DNA of 64,000 bases. It comes from Neomesorhizobium albiziae. Its GTDB lineage: Bacteria; Pseudomonadota; Alphaproteobacteria; Rhizobiales; Rhizobiaceae. Positions within the stretch are counted from its first letter, which is position 1, and the number at the start of each line of letters is the position of its first letter. The stretch spans positions 1-64,000 of the forward strand of contig NZ_FOSL01000019.1 of NCBI RefSeq assembly GCF_900114255.1. The letters run 5' to 3'. Positions 54,038 to 62,356 of this stretch are shown here, in pieces. The notes below the pieces were generated by a model. That model searched no databases. It worked only from the letters and a program-made list of their open reading frames with translations, and was not told the DNA's origin. A program made the position numbers and the translations under genes.

Positions 54038-54730
54038 TCAGTTGCCCTCGCTCAGCCGATAGCCGACACCCGTCTCGGTCCTGATGTAGCGCGGCTGTTC
54101 CGGGTTCGGCTCGATCTTCTGGCGCAGTTGCCTGACATAGACGCGGAGGTACTGTACGTCATAGGCATTGCCCCAGACCTGCTTCAATAGGAAATTGTGG
54201 GTTAGCACCTTGCCGGCATGCTGCGCCATCACGCGCAAGATATCGTATTCCTTGGGCGACAGTTTTATCTCCTCGTCACCGACCTTGACGATGCGCCGGA
54301 CCAGGTCGATCGACAGGTCGCCGGTCTGGAATACCGGTTTTTCGCCCTGCTGCTGCAGCCTGTGGCGAAGCGCGACACGGATGCGGGCAAGCAGCTCGTT
54401 CACGCCGAAGGGTTTTGTCACATAGTCGTCGGCGCCAAGCTCCAGCGCGTCGACGATGCCAGCCTCGTCGGTACGGCTGGACAGGATGATGACCGGTACG
54501 AGATTGTTTGCATCGCGCCAGCGCCGCAGCAACTCATGCCCCTGGATGTCCGGCAACCCGAGGTCGAGGATGACGAGATCGGGTGCGCTGTCCTCCATCC
54601 GCTCGAGCGCCGTCTTGCCGTTGGTTGCTTCAATGGCCGTATAATCCTGTGTCGTCAGGCCGACACGCAGAAGTTTGCGGATTGGCGGTTCGTCGTCGAC
54701 GATGAGAATCCTGACGGGTGGAGCGCTCAT
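54038..54730 (-). CDS. kdpE: KDP operon response regulator KdpE
   Basis: OmpR-family transcription activator of the kdp operon. The 230-residue protein has a receiver domain with acidic pair Asp12-Asp13 and phospho-acceptor Asp56 (VILDLGLPD), and a winged-helix DNA-binding domain with LTHNFLLKQVWG and VYVRQLRQKIEPNP. It is the last gene of the minus-strand operon and overlaps kdpD by 4 bases, so sensor and regulator are coupled. Confidence 0.96.
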   Translation of the reverse strand: MSAPPVRILIVDDEPPIRKLLRVGLTTQDYTAIEATNGKTALERMEDSAPDLVILDLGLPDIQGHELLRRWRDANNLVPVIILSSRTDEAGIVDALELGADDYVTKPFGVNELLARIRVALRHRLQQQGEKPVFQTGDLSIDLVRRIVKVGDEEIKLSPKEYDILRVMAQHAGKVLTHNFLLKQVWGNAYDVQYLRVYVRQLRQKIEPNPEQPRYIRTETGVGYRLSEGN

Positions 54731-57423
54731 GCGGGCAGGGCCTTTCGTTCGGCGTCGCCGGGCAGCGGCATCCTGATCGTGAACACCGCGCCGCTTCGGT
54801 CCGTGCGGTTGCCGGCGGTTATCGTGCCGTTCATCGCCTCGATGAAGCCGCGGCAGATTGCGAGCCCGAGCCCGGTTCCGGCGCGCACGCTGTCGCCTTT
54901 CTGGGCGCGGGTGAATTTGCCGAACACCCGTTCCAGGTCTTCCTCGGCGATGCCCGGCCCTTCGTCTAGCATCTGCAGCGTCACCGCCCCCGTGTCGGCA
55001 AATGCCTGGACACGGATACGTGAATTAGGTTCGGAATATTTGCCGGCATTGTCGAAGAGATTGAACAGCACCTGCTCGAACAGCACCGGGTCGACCCGGA
55101 TCAGCGGCAGGTTTTTCGGCAGATCGACATCAACCTGGTGGGACGCGAGGATTTTCTTGGCCCGCGACAGAGCCGTTCCGACGATTTCGTTGAGTTCGAG
55201 CATGCCGTAATTCGGTTCGATCGCTCCCGATTCCAGCCGCGTCATGTCGAGCAGGTTGGCGATGAACCGGTTCAGCCGCTCGGCTTCGTCCTGAATGGTC
55301 CCCAGCAGGTCTTCCTTGGTCGGGTCGTCCAGCGCTTTGGGAAATTCACGCAGCGTTCCCGCGGCGCCCATGATCGAGGCGAGGGGGGTTTTGAGATCAT
55401 GCGATATGGAAGTGAGCAGCGCCGAACGCAGTCGGTCCGCCTCGACCGCCAGCTTCGCGTTGTCGAGATCCTCGACCAGGTTGACGCGTTCGATGGCAAG
55501 GGCCGCCTGGTCCGTCAGGGCATCCATCAGCCGCCGCCGCTCCGGCGTCAGCAGCGGCCCTTGCCGGTCGTCATCGATGCCGACAACGCCGATGGCGCCG
55601 CGCGCCGTGCGCACCGGCAGGAAGAGTCGCTTGGCGCCGGGCAACGTGTCGGCGCCGCGTCCGGCCGGCCGGTCGTTTTCCCAAGCCCATTTCGCGGCGG
55701 CGATATCGGCCTGGCCGAGCGTATCCTCTGGCGGGTAGCCGGCCTTCACGGTGATGACGCCCTGTTCCGGCATCAGCAGGACGACGCGCACCTTCAGCAT
55801 CGACGCGATCTGGAAAGCGGTTGCCCACAACACGTCGTCAAGCGTCGCGGTTGCCGCAAGCTTCTTCGAAAAGAGATAAAGGTCCTCGGTGACGCGCACC
55901 CGCTGCCTGGCCGCCACTGCCTGGCCACGCACGCGCGCCGTCAGATTGCTGGCGATGACTGCGACGATGAGGAAGAAGACGAAGGTGACGACGCTTTCCG
56001 GGCTCCCCAGCGTCAGCGTGTAGAGCGGTGGCAGGAAGAAGAAATTGAAGGCCAGCGCGCTGACGATGCTGGTGAAGATCGCCGGCGCCAGCCCATACCA
56101 AAGCGCGCTGGTCAGCACGCCCATCAGGAAGACGATGCCGATGTTGTCGACATCCAGAAACTGCCGCAGCAGCAGGGCGCAGCCCAGTGCCAGAGCGGTG
56201 ATCGCGACGGATGAAACGTAAGGCGTCGGCGAAAACTCGGTCTGGTTGCCGAGCTGCACCGAGCCCTTCGGCTCGTTGGCAGCCTTCTCGTTGCCGGAAA
56301 CGACATGCACGCTGACGTCGCCCGCGATACGGATAAGGTCGTGCGTCGCGGAACCTTCGAGCCATTCGCGCCAGCGCCCTTTGTCCGAGCGGCCGATGAC
56401 GATATGCGTCACATTGTGCTCGCGCGCATAACGCATGACTTCTTCTGCGACGTTGCGGCCGGGCAAAGTCGCCGCCTCGGCGCCCAGTGTCTCGGCCAGC
56501 CGCAGCGAAAGCGCGACACGGTCGCGCTCGGCTTCGGAAAGCCGCGCCGATCGCGTCGTCTCGATGGTAATCGCCGACCAGGGCGCGCGTAGGCGCTCCG
56601 CCAGCCGCCTGCCGTAGCGCACCAGTGCGGGCGAGCGCGCCGCTTCGTCAATGCAGACCAGCACGCGGTCGCCGGCGGCCCACGGACCGGAGATCGCGTG
56701 CTCCTGCATGTGTCGGACGAGTTGCTCGTCGACCCGTTGCGCCGTGCGCCTCAGCGCCAGTTCGCGCAGCGCCGTCAAATTGCCAGGCGAGAAATAATTC
56801 TCGATGGCGCTCTTGGCAGTCCTTGGAAGATAGACCTTGCCTTGCTTCAGCCGCTCGATCAGGTCGCCCGGCGTCAGGTCGATGACTTCGATATCGTCGG
56901 CGCGGTCGATGATAGAGTCCGGCACGGTTTCACGCACCCTGATGCGGGTGATCTGGGCGACGATGTCGTTCAGGCTCTCGACGTGCTGGATGTTGACGGT
57001 GGTGTAGACATCTATGCCTGCCGCCAGCAGTTCCTCGATGTCGAGATAGCGTTTCGGATGCCGGCTACCGGGCGTGTTGGTATGCGCGAGTTCGTCGACC
57101 AGCACCAGCGCCGGCCTGCGCGCCAGAATCCCGTCGAGATCCATCTCATCCAGCGCACGGTCCTTGTAGGTAACGGCGACGCGCGGAATGATCTCGAAAC
57201 CCTGGACGAGTGCCTCGGTCTCCTTGCGTCCGTGCGTCTCGACCACGCCGATGACAACATCGACGCCCTCGGCCTTGCGGGCACGGCCGGCGAGCAGCAT
57301 TTCGTAAGTCTTGCCGACGCCAGGTGCAGCGCCCAGGAAGATGCGTAGCCTGCCGCGCACCTCGCGTTCGGCGGATTCGAGAAGGGCGTCCGGGGAGGGA
57401 CGCCGGTCGGCTTCATCGGCCAT
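54727..57423 (-). CDS. kdpD: Osmosensitive K+ channel sensor kinase KdpD
   Basis: Membrane sensor kinase for potassium limitation, 898 residues. Domains in order: KdpD N-terminal ATP-binding domain (about 20-230) with Walker A GAAPGVGKT and LVDELAHTN; universal-stress domain (about 250-370); four transmembrane helices (DUF4118, about 395-500); GAF domain (about 520-640); HisKA with phospho-acceptor His675 in SISHDLKTPLASIMG; and HATPase with FDNAGKYSEP and GTGLGLAICRGF. MADEADRRPSP is the start. Gene order A-B-C-D-E is as in E. coli. Confidence 0.96.
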   Translation of the reverse strand: MADEADRRPSPDALLESAEREVRGRLRIFLGAAPGVGKTYEMLLAGRARKAEGVDVVIGVVETHGRKETEALVQGFEIIPRVAVTYKDRALDEMDLDGILARRPALVLVDELAHTNTPGSRHPKRYLDIEELLAAGIDVYTTVNIQHVESLNDIVAQITRIRVRETVPDSIIDRADDIEVIDLTPGDLIERLKQGKVYLPRTAKSAIENYFSPGNLTALRELALRRTAQRVDEQLVRHMQEHAISGPWAAGDRVLVCIDEAARSPALVRYGRRLAERLRAPWSAITIETTRSARLSEAERDRVALSLRLAETLGAEAATLPGRNVAEEVMRYAREHNVTHIVIGRSDKGRWREWLEGSATHDLIRIAGDVSVHVVSGNEKAANEPKGSVQLGNQTEFSPTPYVSSVAITALALGCALLLRQFLDVDNIGIVFLMGVLTSALWYGLAPAIFTSIVSALAFNFFFLPPLYTLTLGSPESVVTFVFFLIVAVIASNLTARVRGQAVAARQRVRVTEDLYLFSKKLAATATLDDVLWATAFQIASMLKVRVVLLMPEQGVITVKAGYPPEDTLGQADIAAAKWAWENDRPAGRGADTLPGAKRLFLPVRTARGAIGVVGIDDDRQGPLLTPERRRLMDALTDQAALAIERVNLVEDLDNAKLAVEADRLRSALLTSISHDLKTPLASIMGAAGTLREFPKALDDPTKEDLLGTIQDEAERLNRFIANLLDMTRLESGAIEPNYGMLELNEIVGTALSRAKKILASHQVDVDLPKNLPLIRVDPVLFEQVLFNLFDNAGKYSEPNSRIRVQAFADTGAVTLQMLDEGPGIAEEDLERVFGKFTRAQKGDSVRAGTGLGLAICRGFIEAMNGTITAGNRTDRSGAVFTIRMPLPGDAERKALPA

Positions 57424-57473
57424 CAACGCGAGTCGGGCTCCCGGGCAACAGTTCGCCTTATTGGTCGTGCAAA

Positions 57474-57499
57474 GCCGCCCCGGCGTCAACCGGAGCGGC
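57474..57499. other. Hairpin between kdpC and kdpD
   Basis: GCCGCCCCGG and CCGGAGCGGC form a stem with one mismatch around CGTCAA in the 90-base gap between kdpC and kdpD. This is the only sizeable gap inside the operon and may lower expression of the kinase genes relative to the pump. Confidence 0.4.
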
Positions 57500-57513: not shown

Positions 57514-58116
57514 TTAATTCGCCGTGGCATCGAGCGCGCGGTTGAGCGCCAGAACGTTGACCACCGGCTCGCCAAGAACGCCCAGGATGCGGCCCTGGGT
57601 GTGCTCGGCGATCAGCCCCTTGAGCTGGTCTTCCGAGATGCCGCGGGCCTTGGCGACACGTGGCGCCTGGAAAAGTGCCGCTTCCGGCGAGATGTGCGGG
57701 TCGAGACCGCTGCCGGTCGTAGTGACGAGGTCGATCGGCACCGGTTGCGACGGGTTTTCGGCCTTCAGACGCTCGAGATCGGCCTTGACGCGCTCAATCA
57801 TAGCTGCGTTGCCCGGCCCAGCGTTCGAGCCCATCGAATTCACCGCATTGTAAGGAACGGTTGTCGTCTTCGACGGGTCTGCCGGATCCGGCCCGAGGGT
57901 CACCGATGGCCGGCCATGGAAATAGCGTTGGTCGGTGAAGTTCTGGCCGATCAGCTCAGAGCCGACGACCGTGCCGTTTTCGACGATCAGGCTGCCGCTG
58001 GCCTGGTGCGGGAACAGCGCGCCGGCGACGCCGGTCATCGCCAGGGGATAGGCGAGGCCGGTGATCGCCGTGAGCGCGACGATCATGACGAGGGCGGGAC
58101 GAAGTTGCTTCAACAT
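57514..58116 (-). CDS. kdpC: K+-transporting ATPase subunit KdpC
   Basis: Small membrane-anchored subunit that helps KdpB bind nucleotide in the KdpFABC pump. The 200-residue protein has one N-terminal helix (about 8-30, [20 protein letters not shown]) and a periplasmic domain with [20 protein letters not shown], the [15 protein letters not shown] motif and [11 protein letters not shown] at the end. It follows kdpB by 11 bases. Confidence 0.96.
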
Positions 58117-58127
58117 GTTGTTAGTCC

Positions 58128-60227
58128 TTAAGCGAGGCCGAGAGCCGAGACGACCATGTCGATCGCCTTGATGCCGGCGAACGGCACCAGAATGCCGCCG
58201 AGGCCGTAGATGAGGAGGTTGCGGCGCAACAGCGAGGCCGCGCCCACGGCACGATATTTGACGCCGCGCAGCGCCAGCGGGATCAGCGCAACGATGATCA
58301 GCGCATTGAAGATGATCGCCGAAAGGATCGCCGATTGAGGGGTCGAAAGACCCATCACGTTCAGCACCTGGAGCTGCGGGTAGAAGGCCACAAACATCGC
58401 CGGGATGATGGCGAAATATTTGGCGATGTCGTTGGCGATGGAAAACGTCGTCAACGCTCCGCGCGTCATCAGCAGCTGCTTGCCGATCTCGACGATTTCG
58501 ATGAGCTTGGTCGGGTCGCTGTCGAGGTCGACCATGTTGCCGGCCTCGCGGGCGGCCACCGTGCCGGTGTTCATGGCGACGCCGACGTCGGCCTGCGCAA
58601 GTGCGGGCGCATCGTTGGTGCCGTCACCGCACATGGCGACAAGCTTACCCTTGGCCTGTTCCTCACGGATCAGGCTAAGCTTGTTTTCGGGCGTCGCCTC
58701 GGCCAGGAAATCGTCGACGCCGGCTTCGGCGGCGATCGCCGCTGCGGTCATCGGGTTGTCGCCGGTGATCATCACCGTGCGGATGCCCATGCGGCGGAGT
58801 TCCGCGAAACGCTCGCGGATGCCGCCCTTGACGATGTCCTTCAGGTAGACCACGCCGAGCAGACGGCCATCACGCGCCACGGCGAGCGGCGTGCCGCCGA
58901 CCTTGGCGATCTCGTCGGCGATGGCGCGAATGTCGCGAACGCTCTCAGCGGAGGCCTGTGTCTTGAGGAGGGTGGCCGTGCCGCTTGCCACCGCCACTGT
59001 CGGATTGGCGCCGACATGGGCGAGCACTGCATCGACGGCGCCCTTGCGGATCGAACTGCCGTCGACATCGACGCCGCTCATGCGGGTCTGTGCGGTGAAC
59101 GGAACGAAATGCGCATGCAGCGAGCGCATGTCGCGCTCCCTTATGCGGTATTTTTCCTTGGCCAGCACAACGATCGAGCGGCCTTCCGGCGTCTCGTCGG
59201 CAAGCGAGGCCAGCTGGGCAGCGTCCGCGAGTTCCTGCTCGGTAACGCCCTTGATCGGCCGGAATTCCGTCGCCTGGCGGTTGCCCAGCGTGATGGTGCC
59301 GGTCTTGTCGAGTAGCAGCGTATCGACGTCGCCGGCCGCTTCGACGGCGCGGCCGGACATTGCCAGCACGTTGAAGCGCACCAGACGGTCCATGCCGGCG
59401 ATGCCGATCGCCGAGAGCAGCGCGCCGATGGTGGTCGGGATCAGGGTGACGAACAGCGCGACCAGTACGACGATCGGGATCGAGCCGCCGGCATAAGCGG
59501 CGAAGCTCGGGATCGTCGCTACCGCCAGCACGAAGATCAGCGTCATGCCGGCAAGCAGGATGTTGAGCGCGATCTCGTTCGGCGTCTTCTTGCGCTGTGC
59601 GCCTTCGACGAGGCTGATCATGCGGTCGAGGAAGGTGTTGCCGGAAGCCGCGGTGATGCGGACGCGGATCCAGTCGGACAGCACCTGGGTGCCGCCGGTG
59701 ACGGCCGAACGGTCGCCGCCGCTTTCGCGGATGACGGGCGCGGATTCGCCGGTGATCGCCGCTTCGTTGACCGAGGCCACGCCTTCCACGACTTCGCCGT
59801 CGGAAGGAATGATGTCGCCCGCCTCGACGACCACCAGGTCGCCGACCTTGAGGCTGGTCGCAGGCACGATCTCGTAGCTCGACCTGCCGTCGGCGGAGAG
59901 CAGCTTGGCGGTGGTTTCGGTACGTGTACGGCGCAGCGCATCGGCCTGCGCCTTGCCGCGGCCTTCCGCTACTGCTTCGGCGAAATTGGCAAACAAAACG
60001 GTGAACCACAGCCAGATGATGATCTGCAGCGTGAAGCCGTATTGGGCGCTGCTGCCCAGCACCACGTCTTTGATGAACAGGAGGGTGGTCAGGGCGGAAA
60101 CGACGGCGACGACAAACATCACCGGATTTTTCGCCAGCGAACGCGGATCGAGCTTTCTGAAGGAAGCCCCGATCGCCGGAATGAGGATGCCGGCATCCAA
60201 GATGCTGGCGGATTGTAGCTTGCTCAT
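58128..60227 (-). CDS. kdpB: K+-transporting P-type ATPase KdpB
   Basis: Energising subunit of the Kdp pump, 699 residues. It has the P-type phosphorylation motif DKTGTIT with Asp307, the actuator motif TGES (159-162, including the Ser that is inhibited by phosphorylation in E. coli) and [17 protein letters not shown] in the P domain, plus the helix bundle. [10 protein letters not shown] is the start; its ATG overlaps the last 4 bases of orf66, so translation of the two is coupled. This is a departure from the usual direct kdpA-kdpB junction. Confidence 0.97.
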
Positions 60228-60424
60228 TGGAACTGTCCCGGGTTTTCGATCTGCATGGCAGAAACGAGATAGGCGGCGCCCTCGACGCAGAGGGCGCTTA
60301 TGGCGAGAACGATGACCATGCCGAGGATCAGGTCGGACACGGCGAACTGCGGCCGACTGTCCCGCGCCTTGTCGGCGCGGGCAGGCAACAGATAACGCAG
60401 GCTGCTCAGCGGATAGTGTGACAT
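60224..60424 (-). CDS. 66-residue single-helix membrane protein between kdpA and kdpB (orf66)
   Basis: No family recognised. The protein has a basic N-terminal half (residues 1-27, with seven Arg/Lys) and one transmembrane helix (about 29-55, [20 protein letters not shown]), then a short polar tail. It starts 8 bases after the kdpA stop; its GAGG ribosome binding site overlaps that stop. Its own end overlaps the kdpB start by 4 bases. Length and sequence differ from KdpF (29 residues, present further upstream). Tight coupling on both sides argues for a real part of the pump operon; an accessory subunit is inference. Confidence 0.8.
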
Positions 60425-60432
60425 CGCGGGCC

Positions 60433-62136
60433 TCAGAAGCTCTGGCCGGACAGGATCGCCAGATGTTCGGCGATCGGGCCAAGCGCCAGCGCCGGCAAGA
60501 AGGTGAGGCCGCCGACGATCAGGATCACGCCGACCAGCAGGCCGACGAACAGGCCGCCATTGGTCGGAAATGTTCCGAGCGACACAGGAACCGTCTTCTT
60601 GGCGGCCAGCGAGCCCGCGATGGCAAGTGCCGGGATGATGATCAGGAAGCGGCCCATCAGCATGGCGATGCCGAGCGTGATATTGTACCAGGGCGTGTTG
60701 CCGGTGAGGCCGCCCAAGGCCGAGCCGTTGTTGGCCGCCGCCGATGTATAGGCGTAGAGGATTTCCGAAAATCCGTGCGGCCCCTGATTGGCGATCGAGG
60801 CGACCGCCGACGGCATCACCACGCTGATGGCGGTGAAGCCGAGCATCGCGAGCGGCAGGCTGAGCAATGCCAGCATCGCCATCTTGACCTCTTTGGCCTC
60901 GATCTTCTTGCCAAGATACTCTGGCGTGCGCCCGACCATCAGGCCGGACACGAAGATCGCGACGACGACGAACAGAAGGATGCCGTAGAGACCGGCACCG
61001 ACGCCGCCGACAATGACCTCGCCAAGCTCCATGTTGATCAGCGGGATCATGCCACCGAGCGCGGTGAAACTGTCATGCAACGCATTCACCGCGCCGCAGG
61101 AGGCTGCGGTGGTGATCACGGCGAAGAGGGCCGACATGGCAATGCCGAAGCGCACTTCCTTGCCTTCCATGTTGCCGCCCTCGAGGCCGAGCGCATGCAT
61201 CAGCGGGTTGCCGGAAGCTTCCGCCCAATAGGCGAAGAGGACGCCGGCAATGAACAGCACGCCCATTGCGGCGAGGATCGCCCAGCCCTGCCGCTGGTCG
61301 CCGACCATGCGGCCGAAAACGTTGGTCAGCGCCGCGCCGATCGCAAAGATCGAAACCATCTGGATGAGGTTGGTCAGGGCATCCGGGTTCTCGAAGGGAT
61401 GCGCCGAATTGGCGTTGAAGAAACCGCCGCCATTGGTGCCAAGCATCTTGATTGCAAGCTGCGAGGCGACCGGGCCGACTGCAATCGTCTGCTTGCCGCC
61501 TTCCAGCGTCGTCGCGTCGACATAGGCGCCAAGTGTTTGGGGAACGCCGAGAAAGACATAGACGAGCGTCAGCACCACGCACAGCGGCAGCAGCACGTAG
61601 AGTGTCGAACGCGTGAGGTCGACCCAGAAATTGCCGATCGATTTCGACGACGCGCGTGCAAATCCGCGGATTAATGCGACCGCAAGCGCCATGCCGGTCG
61701 CCGCGGAAACGAAGTTCTGCACGGTCAGGCCGGCCATCTGCACGAGATAGGACATCGTGCTTTCGCCGCCGTAGTTCTGCCAGTTGGTGTTGGTGACGAA
61801 GCTGACCGCGGTGTTGAAGGACAGTTCCTGCGGAACAGCCGCCATGCCGGCGGGATTGAAGGGCAGCCCGGCCTGGAAACGCTGCAGGAGATAAAGCACC
61901 AGGAAACCGAGCAGGTTGAAGGCGAGCATGGCGCCGACATAGGTCGTCCAATGCTGTTCCTCGCGCTCGTTGGTGCCGGCGACGCGATAAAGCAGCCGCT
62001 CGAACGGCGCCAACAGGAAGCCGAGAAAAGTGCGTTCGCCCGTATAGACGCGCGTCATGTAGCCGCCGAGCGGCCTCACCAGGAGAATGACGATGCCGCA
62101 GAAAATGAGGATCTGGATCCAGCCGTTGAGTGTCAT
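60433..62136 (-). CDS. kdpA: K+-transporting ATPase subunit KdpA
   Basis: Potassium-selective channel-like subunit of the KdpFABC pump, from the superfamily of K+ transporters. The 567-residue protein has about ten helices and the four filter-loop regions, for example [20 protein letters not shown] near residue 106, [18 protein letters not shown] and [13 protein letters not shown]. It ends just before orf66 and starts 37 bases after kdpF. Confidence 0.97.
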
Positions 62137-62172: not shown

Positions 62173-62262
62173 TCAGAAACGTTCGGGACGGATCAGCGCG
62201 TAGACGAGATAAGCGGTGAGCAGGACGGTCACGCCACCTGCCAGTATGTAGTCGATCAACAT
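62173..62262 (-). CDS. kdpF: K+-transporting ATPase subunit KdpF
   Basis: Smallest known subunit of the Kdp complex; stabilises the KdpABC assembly. The 29-residue protein begins MLIDYILAGGVTVLLTAYLV and ends YALIRPERF, a single helix with the L-x-RPE-x-F tail typical of KdpF. AGGAA sits 8 bases before the ATG, overlapping the stop of the 27-residue upstream frame. It is too short for most gene finders. Confidence 0.93.
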   Translation of the reverse strand: MLIDYILAGGVTVLLTAYLVYALIRPERF

Positions 62263-62272
62263 TTTCGGGTTC

Positions 62273-62356
62273 CTAGAGGTGGTCGCAGGCCGACACGTAG
62301 GCGAAGAACAGCACAAACGCGGCGACACCGGATGCGAGCAGGATGATATCCAGCAT
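62273..62356 (-). CDS. 27-residue single-helix membrane protein upstream of kdpF (orf27)
   Basis: No named family. The product reads MLDIILLASGVAAFVLFFAY and ends VSACDHL: one helix with a short C-terminal Ala-Cys-Asp tail. AAGG lies 9 bases before its ATG; its TAG stop is part of the kdpF ribosome binding site and is 10 bases before the kdpF start. I have the impression that similar short proteins with a Y-V-x-A-C-D end occur beside kdp in other proteobacteria, but cannot confirm. It may be a second small Kdp subunit or a leader peptide. Confidence 0.7.
   Translation of the reverse strand: MLDIILLASGVAAFVLFFAYVSACDHL

Follow-up and report, generated by a model that had tools for sequence, protein, structure and literature searches.

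A small single-pass membrane protein gene tied to kdpB in rhizobial kdp operons, a candidate accessory protein of the Kdp pump

The kdp operon described here lies on the minus strand of a 64,000-nt stretch of DNA from Neomesorhizobium albiziae (the window). On that strand it reads, in order, a 27-aa ORF, kdpF, kdpA, a small gene that we call X, kdpB, kdpC and a kdpD-like ORF. X (60224–60424) has an ATG start and encodes a single-pass membrane protein of 66 aa, as judged from its ORF and translation, its profile membership and the selection seen in its homologues. Its neighbours kdpA (60433–62136, 567 aa) and kdpB (58128–60227, 699 aa) were matched by PF03814 and TIGR00680 and by TIGR01497, respectively; the position of X given in a first-pass annotation of this DNA is confirmed. 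Downstream of kdpB lies kdpC (57514–58116, 200 aa; PF02669), followed by an ORF (54727–57489; true start probably inside) which, from its place in the operon, we take to encode a KdpD-like sensor kinase; its product matches a frame beyond kdpC in other kdp loci. At the other end of the operon, kdpF (62173–62262, 29 aa) ends in RPERF and matches PF09604 (E=2.3e-9) and TIGR02115. The second small hydrophobic ORF upstream of kdpF (62273–62356, 27 aa, ending ACDHL) found no match in Pfam or NCBIfam. A hydrophobic ORF of 26–27 aa ending C-[DEG]-x-[LI] recurs in this place, and by motif was seen in 32 of 56 loci with an ORF between kdpA and kdpB and in 28 of 118 without one.

X is closely fitted between its neighbours. 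It starts 8 nt past the kdpA stop and is preceded by GAGG (60431–60434), the likely ribosome binding site, which lies within TGAGG and overlaps that stop. At the other end, the TGA of X shares the 4-nt sequence ATGA (60224–60227) with the kdpB ATG. The coordinates, the length and both overlaps had been read correctly in the first-pass annotation, according to the sequence and the ORF reading. Across 49 loci, X starts a median of 8 nt past the kdpA stop and an SD-like motif is present in 30, while ATGA is shared with kdpB in 12, including the window; this tight overlap is not general among X loci.

The predicted protein has one hydrophobic core (residues 29–47), with a net charge of +3 before it and −2 after it, in agreement with the single helix and basic N-terminal half noted earlier. 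A single-sequence AlphaFold model (mean pLDDT 75.7, pTM 0.44) places helices at residues 6–23 (less sure) and 25–60, with pLDDT values of 89–95 in blocks of residues 31–60 and 56–67 in the N-terminal third. In 83 of 87 members of the X family the net charge is higher on the N-terminal than on the C-terminal side. By the positive-inside rule, the N-terminus would therefore be cytoplasmic, followed by one membrane helix. X is thus a short protein with a single membrane helix, as are regulators of the MgtU/MgtS type. It matched no Pfam family, and the one NCBIfam row returned was leptolysin (E 0.14), far below cut-off.

Single-sequence searches with X gave no clear relative in the contigs of its own genome, 60 relatives and two genomes of the genus, nor in plasmids. 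Among 247 family genomes, the best match outside the window (E 0.009) lay inside a 996-aa frame, and a match in genome G235 (E 0.836, 25%) is actually a positional homologue of X. Plain protein search fails because the protein diverges fast. Relatives were found by reading kdpA–kdpB junctions after KdpA searches, not by searching for X directly. The search proposed in the first-pass annotation thus returned no clear relative in its plain form, and the homologues emerged from the junctions. KdpA was found in 120 of 247 family genomes, in 79 of 394 at E≤1e-245 and in 47 of 289 class genomes.

The junction gaps were mostly of two kinds, either 8–75 nt without an ORF or 113–453 nt with an ORF that starts close to the end of kdpA and whose product has a basic N-terminus and a single hydrophobic helix. 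A gap of 80–222 nt without a hydrophobic ORF was present at 15 of 251 junctions; gaps above 75 nt without such an ORF numbered 5 of 107, 8 of 67 and 2 of 77 in the three groups of loci that follow. Among loci whose KdpA is at least 66% identical to that of the window, 55 of 107 readable ones have a hydrophobic kdpA–kdpB ORF (50 of them at least 40 aa long), and 48 of the 107 score at least 20 bits with profile A1, its own members included. Where KdpA is 57–66% identical, one of 67 loci has a hydrophobic junction ORF and none reaches 20 bits; that ORF (L131, KdpA 60%) scores 2.1 bits and was rejected as unrelated to X. From named genomes, 80 loci were fetched with KdpA and 77 were readable, of which 65 have the ORF and 57 reach 20 bits. 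Unreadable junctions (L178–L181, L202, L318, L357, L362) were dropped.

Positional homologues of X occur in Rhizobium, Sinorhizobium/Ensifer, Mesorhizobium, Phyllobacterium, Agrobacterium genomosp. 13, Mangrovicella and Bosea. Profile scores were weaker for junction ORFs of Methylobacterium and of Microvirga, where two of three loci score low (L310, 14.3 bits; L332, 11.8) and the third reaches 30.7 bits (L309). In genus g30, to which the Rhizobium johnstonii 3841 sequence was assigned by its coordinates, 108 of 148 genomes encode a relative of the R. johnstonii protein (E≤0.001), and in g127 a relative of another X homologue was found in 16 of 26 genomes; the 46 loci fetched on the basis of these searches all have the ORF between kdpA and kdpB. 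The expectation that related species carry homologues in the same place is therefore borne out by the junction survey. Homologues are 44–85 aa long in 50 of 55, 58 of 65 and 46 of 46 ORF-bearing loci in three surveys, and share the consensus A-S-x-I-x-L-x-M at the start of the helix, with no invariant column. S. fredii CCBAU45436 has X beside kdpA. The S. meliloti records listed have a KdpA about 62% identical to that of the window, a type in which X was not seen (67 loci, KdpA 57–66%). Outside the family, those 47 class genomes contain 50 kdpA places, of which 29 were fetched besides the window's and 28 were readable. The lone hydrophobic kdpA–kdpB ORF among these 28 (L183) scored 5.1 bits against the profile, which is not significant, with 13 of 200 shuffles scoring as well. 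A Methylobacterium locus (L365) has an ORF similar to that of L183 (10.6 bits), and both are possible distant members on sequence grounds.

In annotated records, X appears as a hypothetical protein (R. johnstonii 3841, RL_RS40320, WP_165447751.1; Phyllobacterium zundukense, WP_157929631.1), and elsewhere it is unannotated or bears another name. In R. beringeri and one R. leguminosarum plasmid record (H86–H90) the X region is annotated as phosphoenolpyruvate carboxylase, which is probably a misannotation. Nine loci (L059, L060, L062, L171, L329, L330, L338, L342, L360) have a hydrophobic ORF of 25–28 aa in the place of X, of the type ML[KN]PS[SN]CILSIL, which looks as if it were X minus its basic N-terminus; the last five are named Ochrobactrum/Brucella.

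Membership of the window's X in this family was assessed with profiles trained without it. Against a profile of 33 positional homologues it scored 23.7 bits (E=4.1e-6 among 2128 targets), a score reached by none of 1000 block-shuffled versions. Among 1127 background ORFs of the window, the sole other high scorer was the stop-to-stop frame that contains X; the next best reached 8.0 bits. When each of the 33 homologues was left out in turn, 30 beat all 200 of their own shuffles, and 1, 3 and 13 of 200 shuffles did as well for L067, L078 and L183, in a lenient test where near relatives of the left-out row stayed in the model. With a 31-row profile, X (E=2.4e-4) was the single match at E≤0.01 among the candidates scored in its own genome (18 and 34 of 307 first-look candidates). 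By profile, the window's X is a member of the family, and on this evidence it is no chance ORF.

The 31-row profile gave at least 42 matches at E≤1.5e-6 in 356 family genomes; in most of the listed genomes, scoring covered 18 candidates. Comparison with kdpA positions and junction readings showed that 40 of these 42 strong matches adjoin kdpB, in the kdpA–kdpB junction or immediately ahead of the gene, so X is co-encoded with the pump. In one genome (G366, L281), X occurs a second time, about 480 nt ahead of kdpA. In another (G327, L280), X lies at a contig edge and the kdp contig ends about 580 nt upstream of kdpA, consistent with the same upstream place. In 190 class genomes, the 11 weak matches besides the window (E 0.001–0.01), mostly within long open frames, were taken as noise.

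Substitution patterns indicate that X encodes a protein. Pooled dN/dS was 0.37 for 430 pairs from 30 Rhizobium loci and 0.41 for 97 pairs from 15 loci of g127. Five smaller sets, of between 1 and 12 pairs each, gave 0.17–0.45, and one of 3 Sinorhizobium pairs gave 0.77. Shifted frames of all eight sets gave at least 0.85, save 0.61 in the Sinorhizobium set, and kdpA and kdpB of the same loci gave 0.02–0.33. Pairs with dS below 0.05 or over half-saturated were omitted, as was L252, and some Rhizobium and g127 starts were trimmed to a common one. Seven of eight sets thus show purifying selection on X, which is less strong than that on the pump genes. A ratio near 1 across relatives, which would have spoken against a gene, was not found in these seven sets; the exception is the value from 3 pairs. 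By this measure, X is a selected protein-coding gene that evolves fast under constraint. Within the Rhizobium sequences, dS is 0.17 at residues 25–38, compared with 0.39 and 0.46 on the flanks, which perhaps reflects constraint at the nucleotide level.

The presence of X is patchy. Mapped on a tree of KdpA from 106 loci (54 with X), its distribution needs 14 changes (shuffled mean 35.7), of which 11 are forced by well supported branches; the tree counts changes without telling gain from loss. A duplicate locus (L159) was left out of the trees. Two loci (L041, L304) hold homologous sequence in altered frames; L041 was counted with X in the KdpA tree and without X in the KdpB tree, and L304 without X in the junction survey. 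Remnants were also found: one locus (L050, gap 65) reads as retaining the first codons of X, the copy in G754 has an internal stop and the two parts of that in G714 lie in different frames. In R. phaseoli Bra5 (gap 62), nothing of X could be recognised. Because of the remnants, the patchy presence argues for repeated loss. The sister clade of the window's KdpA (four rows, 84–88% identical) has a 15-nt gap throughout and no X. X is lacking from many close operons and is therefore not essential to the Kdp pump as such. Over hundreds of tests, no KdpA or KdpB column tracked the loss of X beyond chance (best p ~0.01).

Whether X always lies between kdpA and kdpB had been raised as a check in the first-pass annotation, and the answer is no. 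Twelve loci (L268–L279) are rearranged and read X, kdpB, a 26-aa hydrophobic ORF, kdpA, kdpC and kdpD, so that X is upstream of kdpB and kdpA is downstream. Compared with the window, KdpB is 81–84% identical in these operons, KdpA 44–45% and KdpC 34–42%; the KdpD encoded downstream is 58–72% identical. Nine of the 12 also have a KdpF-like ORF ahead of X, and the 26-aa ORF between kdpB and kdpA, present in all 12, most often ends in D-R-A or D-K-A. Nine loci were found through a KdpA 44–48% identical to that of the window, regardless of X, and five of these have X; the other seven of the 12 were chosen because of an X match. The X homologue of L268 found no match in plasmids. Taken together with four rearranged loci that lack X (L282–L285), the hybrid operons show KdpB at 80–84% identity (one 66%), KdpA at 44–46% and KdpC at 34–42%. 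For rearranged copies of X, dN/dS was 0.18–0.43 in five of seven pairs, some at saturated dS, and above 1 in two, both involving L269; L277 was read from inside its frame, its start being unsure. Selection appears less clear in these copies.

X is kept with a similar KdpB beside a divergent KdpA and KdpC, and so goes with KdpB and not with KdpA or KdpC. In line with this, loci of ordinary order with a 57–66% identical KdpA have a KdpB of 62–70% identity (two 75–76%) and no profile-supported X. A KdpB tree (FastTree, 189 rows) contains a 92-row clade with local support 99 that holds 52 of 53 ordinary-order carriers of X and all 12 rearranged ones. Among the rearranged operons without X, the KdpBs of L283 and L285 fall outside this clade and those of L282 and L284 inside. 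At the level of operon content, these comparisons show that X stays linked to KdpB even where KdpA and KdpC have changed. The simplest reading would be that an X–kdpB block, perhaps with kdpF, came to adjoin another kdpA and kdpC, and that X was kept. Hitchhiking by physical linkage alone is a possible explanation of the co-inheritance, though it accounts less well for the retention.

The first-pass annotation had proposed that X could be an extra subunit or regulator of the Kdp ATPase. What stands of this is a selected gene tied to the kdp operon and linked to KdpB, while a role in the pump remains an interpretation. Our preferred reading, which we consider reasonably probable, is that X is a dedicated accessory single-pass protein of the motor subunit KdpB which would bind and stabilise or modulate it, in the manner of MgtU and MgtS. 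Within one branch of the Kdp pumps of Hyphomicrobiales, X would be translated from the kdp mRNA immediately ahead of KdpB, and we infer that this holds in the window's own organism too. One helix would be inserted in the membrane with the basic N-terminus in the cytoplasm. Within the membrane, X would most likely pack against the membrane helices of KdpB and stabilise KdpB or tune its activity or turnover, as MgtU does for MgtB and MgtS for MgtA. More tentatively, the rhizobial Kdp pump might have five subunits, with X as a stoichiometric KdpB-bound helix that moves with kdpB and adds a control that the E. coli complex lacks; this control might be one of stability or a K+ dependent inhibition. 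In S. fredii CCBAU45436, the kdpA–kdpB intergenic region is co-transcribed with the operon, as seen by RT-PCR, and a kdpBC mutant does not grow at 1 uM K+ (PMC9239096). The accessible parts of that study do not mention X, and the main text of a ribosome-profiling paper on the S. meliloti small proteome, as far as available, does not contain 'kdp'.

Since KdpF and KdpD also stay with X in the rearranged operons, they may be partners as well. Like KdpF, X is short, has one helix and is encoded together with kdpA and kdpB. Its size, its single helix and its usual place beside kdpA would suit a second KdpF-like helix acting on KdpA, KdpF or the KdpA–KdpB interface; KdpF, itself a small helix of the pump, lies upstream of X in most of the rearranged operons. 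The two proteins nevertheless differ. KdpF of the window has 29 aa, ends in RPERF and precedes kdpA in the usual order, whereas X precedes kdpB, has a long basic N-terminus and the helix-start consensus described above, and coexists with KdpF. X was rejected as KdpF itself, having no match to PF09604 or the NCBIfam KdpF family alongside a separately encoded KdpF, as the first-pass annotation had held. It was also rejected as a replacement: a search by end motif located KdpF ahead of kdpA in every one of the 56 loci with a kdpA–kdpB ORF (a count that includes the unrelated ORF of L131, the duplicate locus L159 and the altered frame of L041). The persistence of X beside a KdpA of 44–45% identity argues further against such a partnership, which we regard as unlikely. 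KdpG is a name used for cyanobacteria; the literature found uses KDPG for a metabolite. A role with the sensor kinase KdpD, in signalling or in inhibitory phosphorylation of KdpB and not as a component of the pump, is a live rival because KdpD too is kept, all 12 rearranged X operons encoding it downstream. In E. coli, Ser162 of KdpB is a phosphorylation target of KdpD (PMC11018627), and the KdpB of the window keeps the TGES motif. Yet X adjoins kdpB and not kdpD in both layouts, the rearranged loci without X (L282–L285) keep KdpD too, and at the Phyllobacterium zundukense locus, which has X, the gene after kdpC is annotated as an alpha/beta hydrolase and not as kdpD. We give this role little weight.

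A different kind of explanation is that X couples translation: a ribosome finishing kdpA would translate a short membrane segment and hand over to kdpB, the peptide having no lasting role. The short distance from the kdpA stop, the SD-like motifs and the ATGA overlaps would fit such an element. Purifying selection at the level of residues does not, nor does the motif that homologues share close to where the helix enters the membrane, and many loci have about 30–95 nt between X and kdpB. Moreover, X is retained ahead of kdpB even in operons where it does not adjoin kdpA, and many relatives have a kdpA–kdpB gap of 8–40 nt and no ORF. Coupling alone thus seems quite improbable. An X without function, as a chance ORF or one in decay, would be in keeping with its low conservation, patchy presence and some broken copies, but dN/dS and the profile results, together with its position, speak strongly against this, and we consider it very improbable.

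The potassium pump KdpFABC is a much studied model of a P-type pump and is described as having four subunits (PMC6255902). In the open-licence literature as far as accessible, no description of a gene between kdpA and kdpB was found. The present comparison suggests something new, a Kdp pump whose operon includes one more small gene, linked to KdpB and without a family in Pfam or NCBIfam. In S. fredii, kdp contributes to nodulation as well as to growth at low K+ (PMC9239096). As a fifth conserved kdp gene in well-studied rhizobia, namely R. johnstonii 3841 and S. fredii NGR234 and CCBAU45436, X would change how the rhizobial pump should be purified, modelled and genetically dissected. Small subunits that evolve fast escape homology search but appear on reading gene junctions.

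Small membrane proteins that act on transporters offer several comparisons for the proposed accessory role of X at KdpB. Phospholamban and sarcolipin are single helices that act on SERCA, a eukaryotic P-type ATPase, and the N-terminus of phospholamban is basic and cytoplasmic. X is like both in its single helix and like phospholamban in its basic N-terminus, by way of analogy. AcrZ and YajC bind and modulate AcrB (PMC10710835), a transporter of another class; like X, they are small proteins. Nearer to X are MgtU, MgtS and MgtR, small proteins which, like X, are encoded alongside a P-type pump (MgtA or MgtB). MgtU binds and protects MgtB, and MgtS binds MgtA and stabilises it against FtsH-mediated degradation (PMC10710835). 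At 28–31 aa, these proteins are shorter than X with its 66 aa, and the comparison is one of kind and place. By this analogy, MgtU and MgtS would be the closest working analogues of X.
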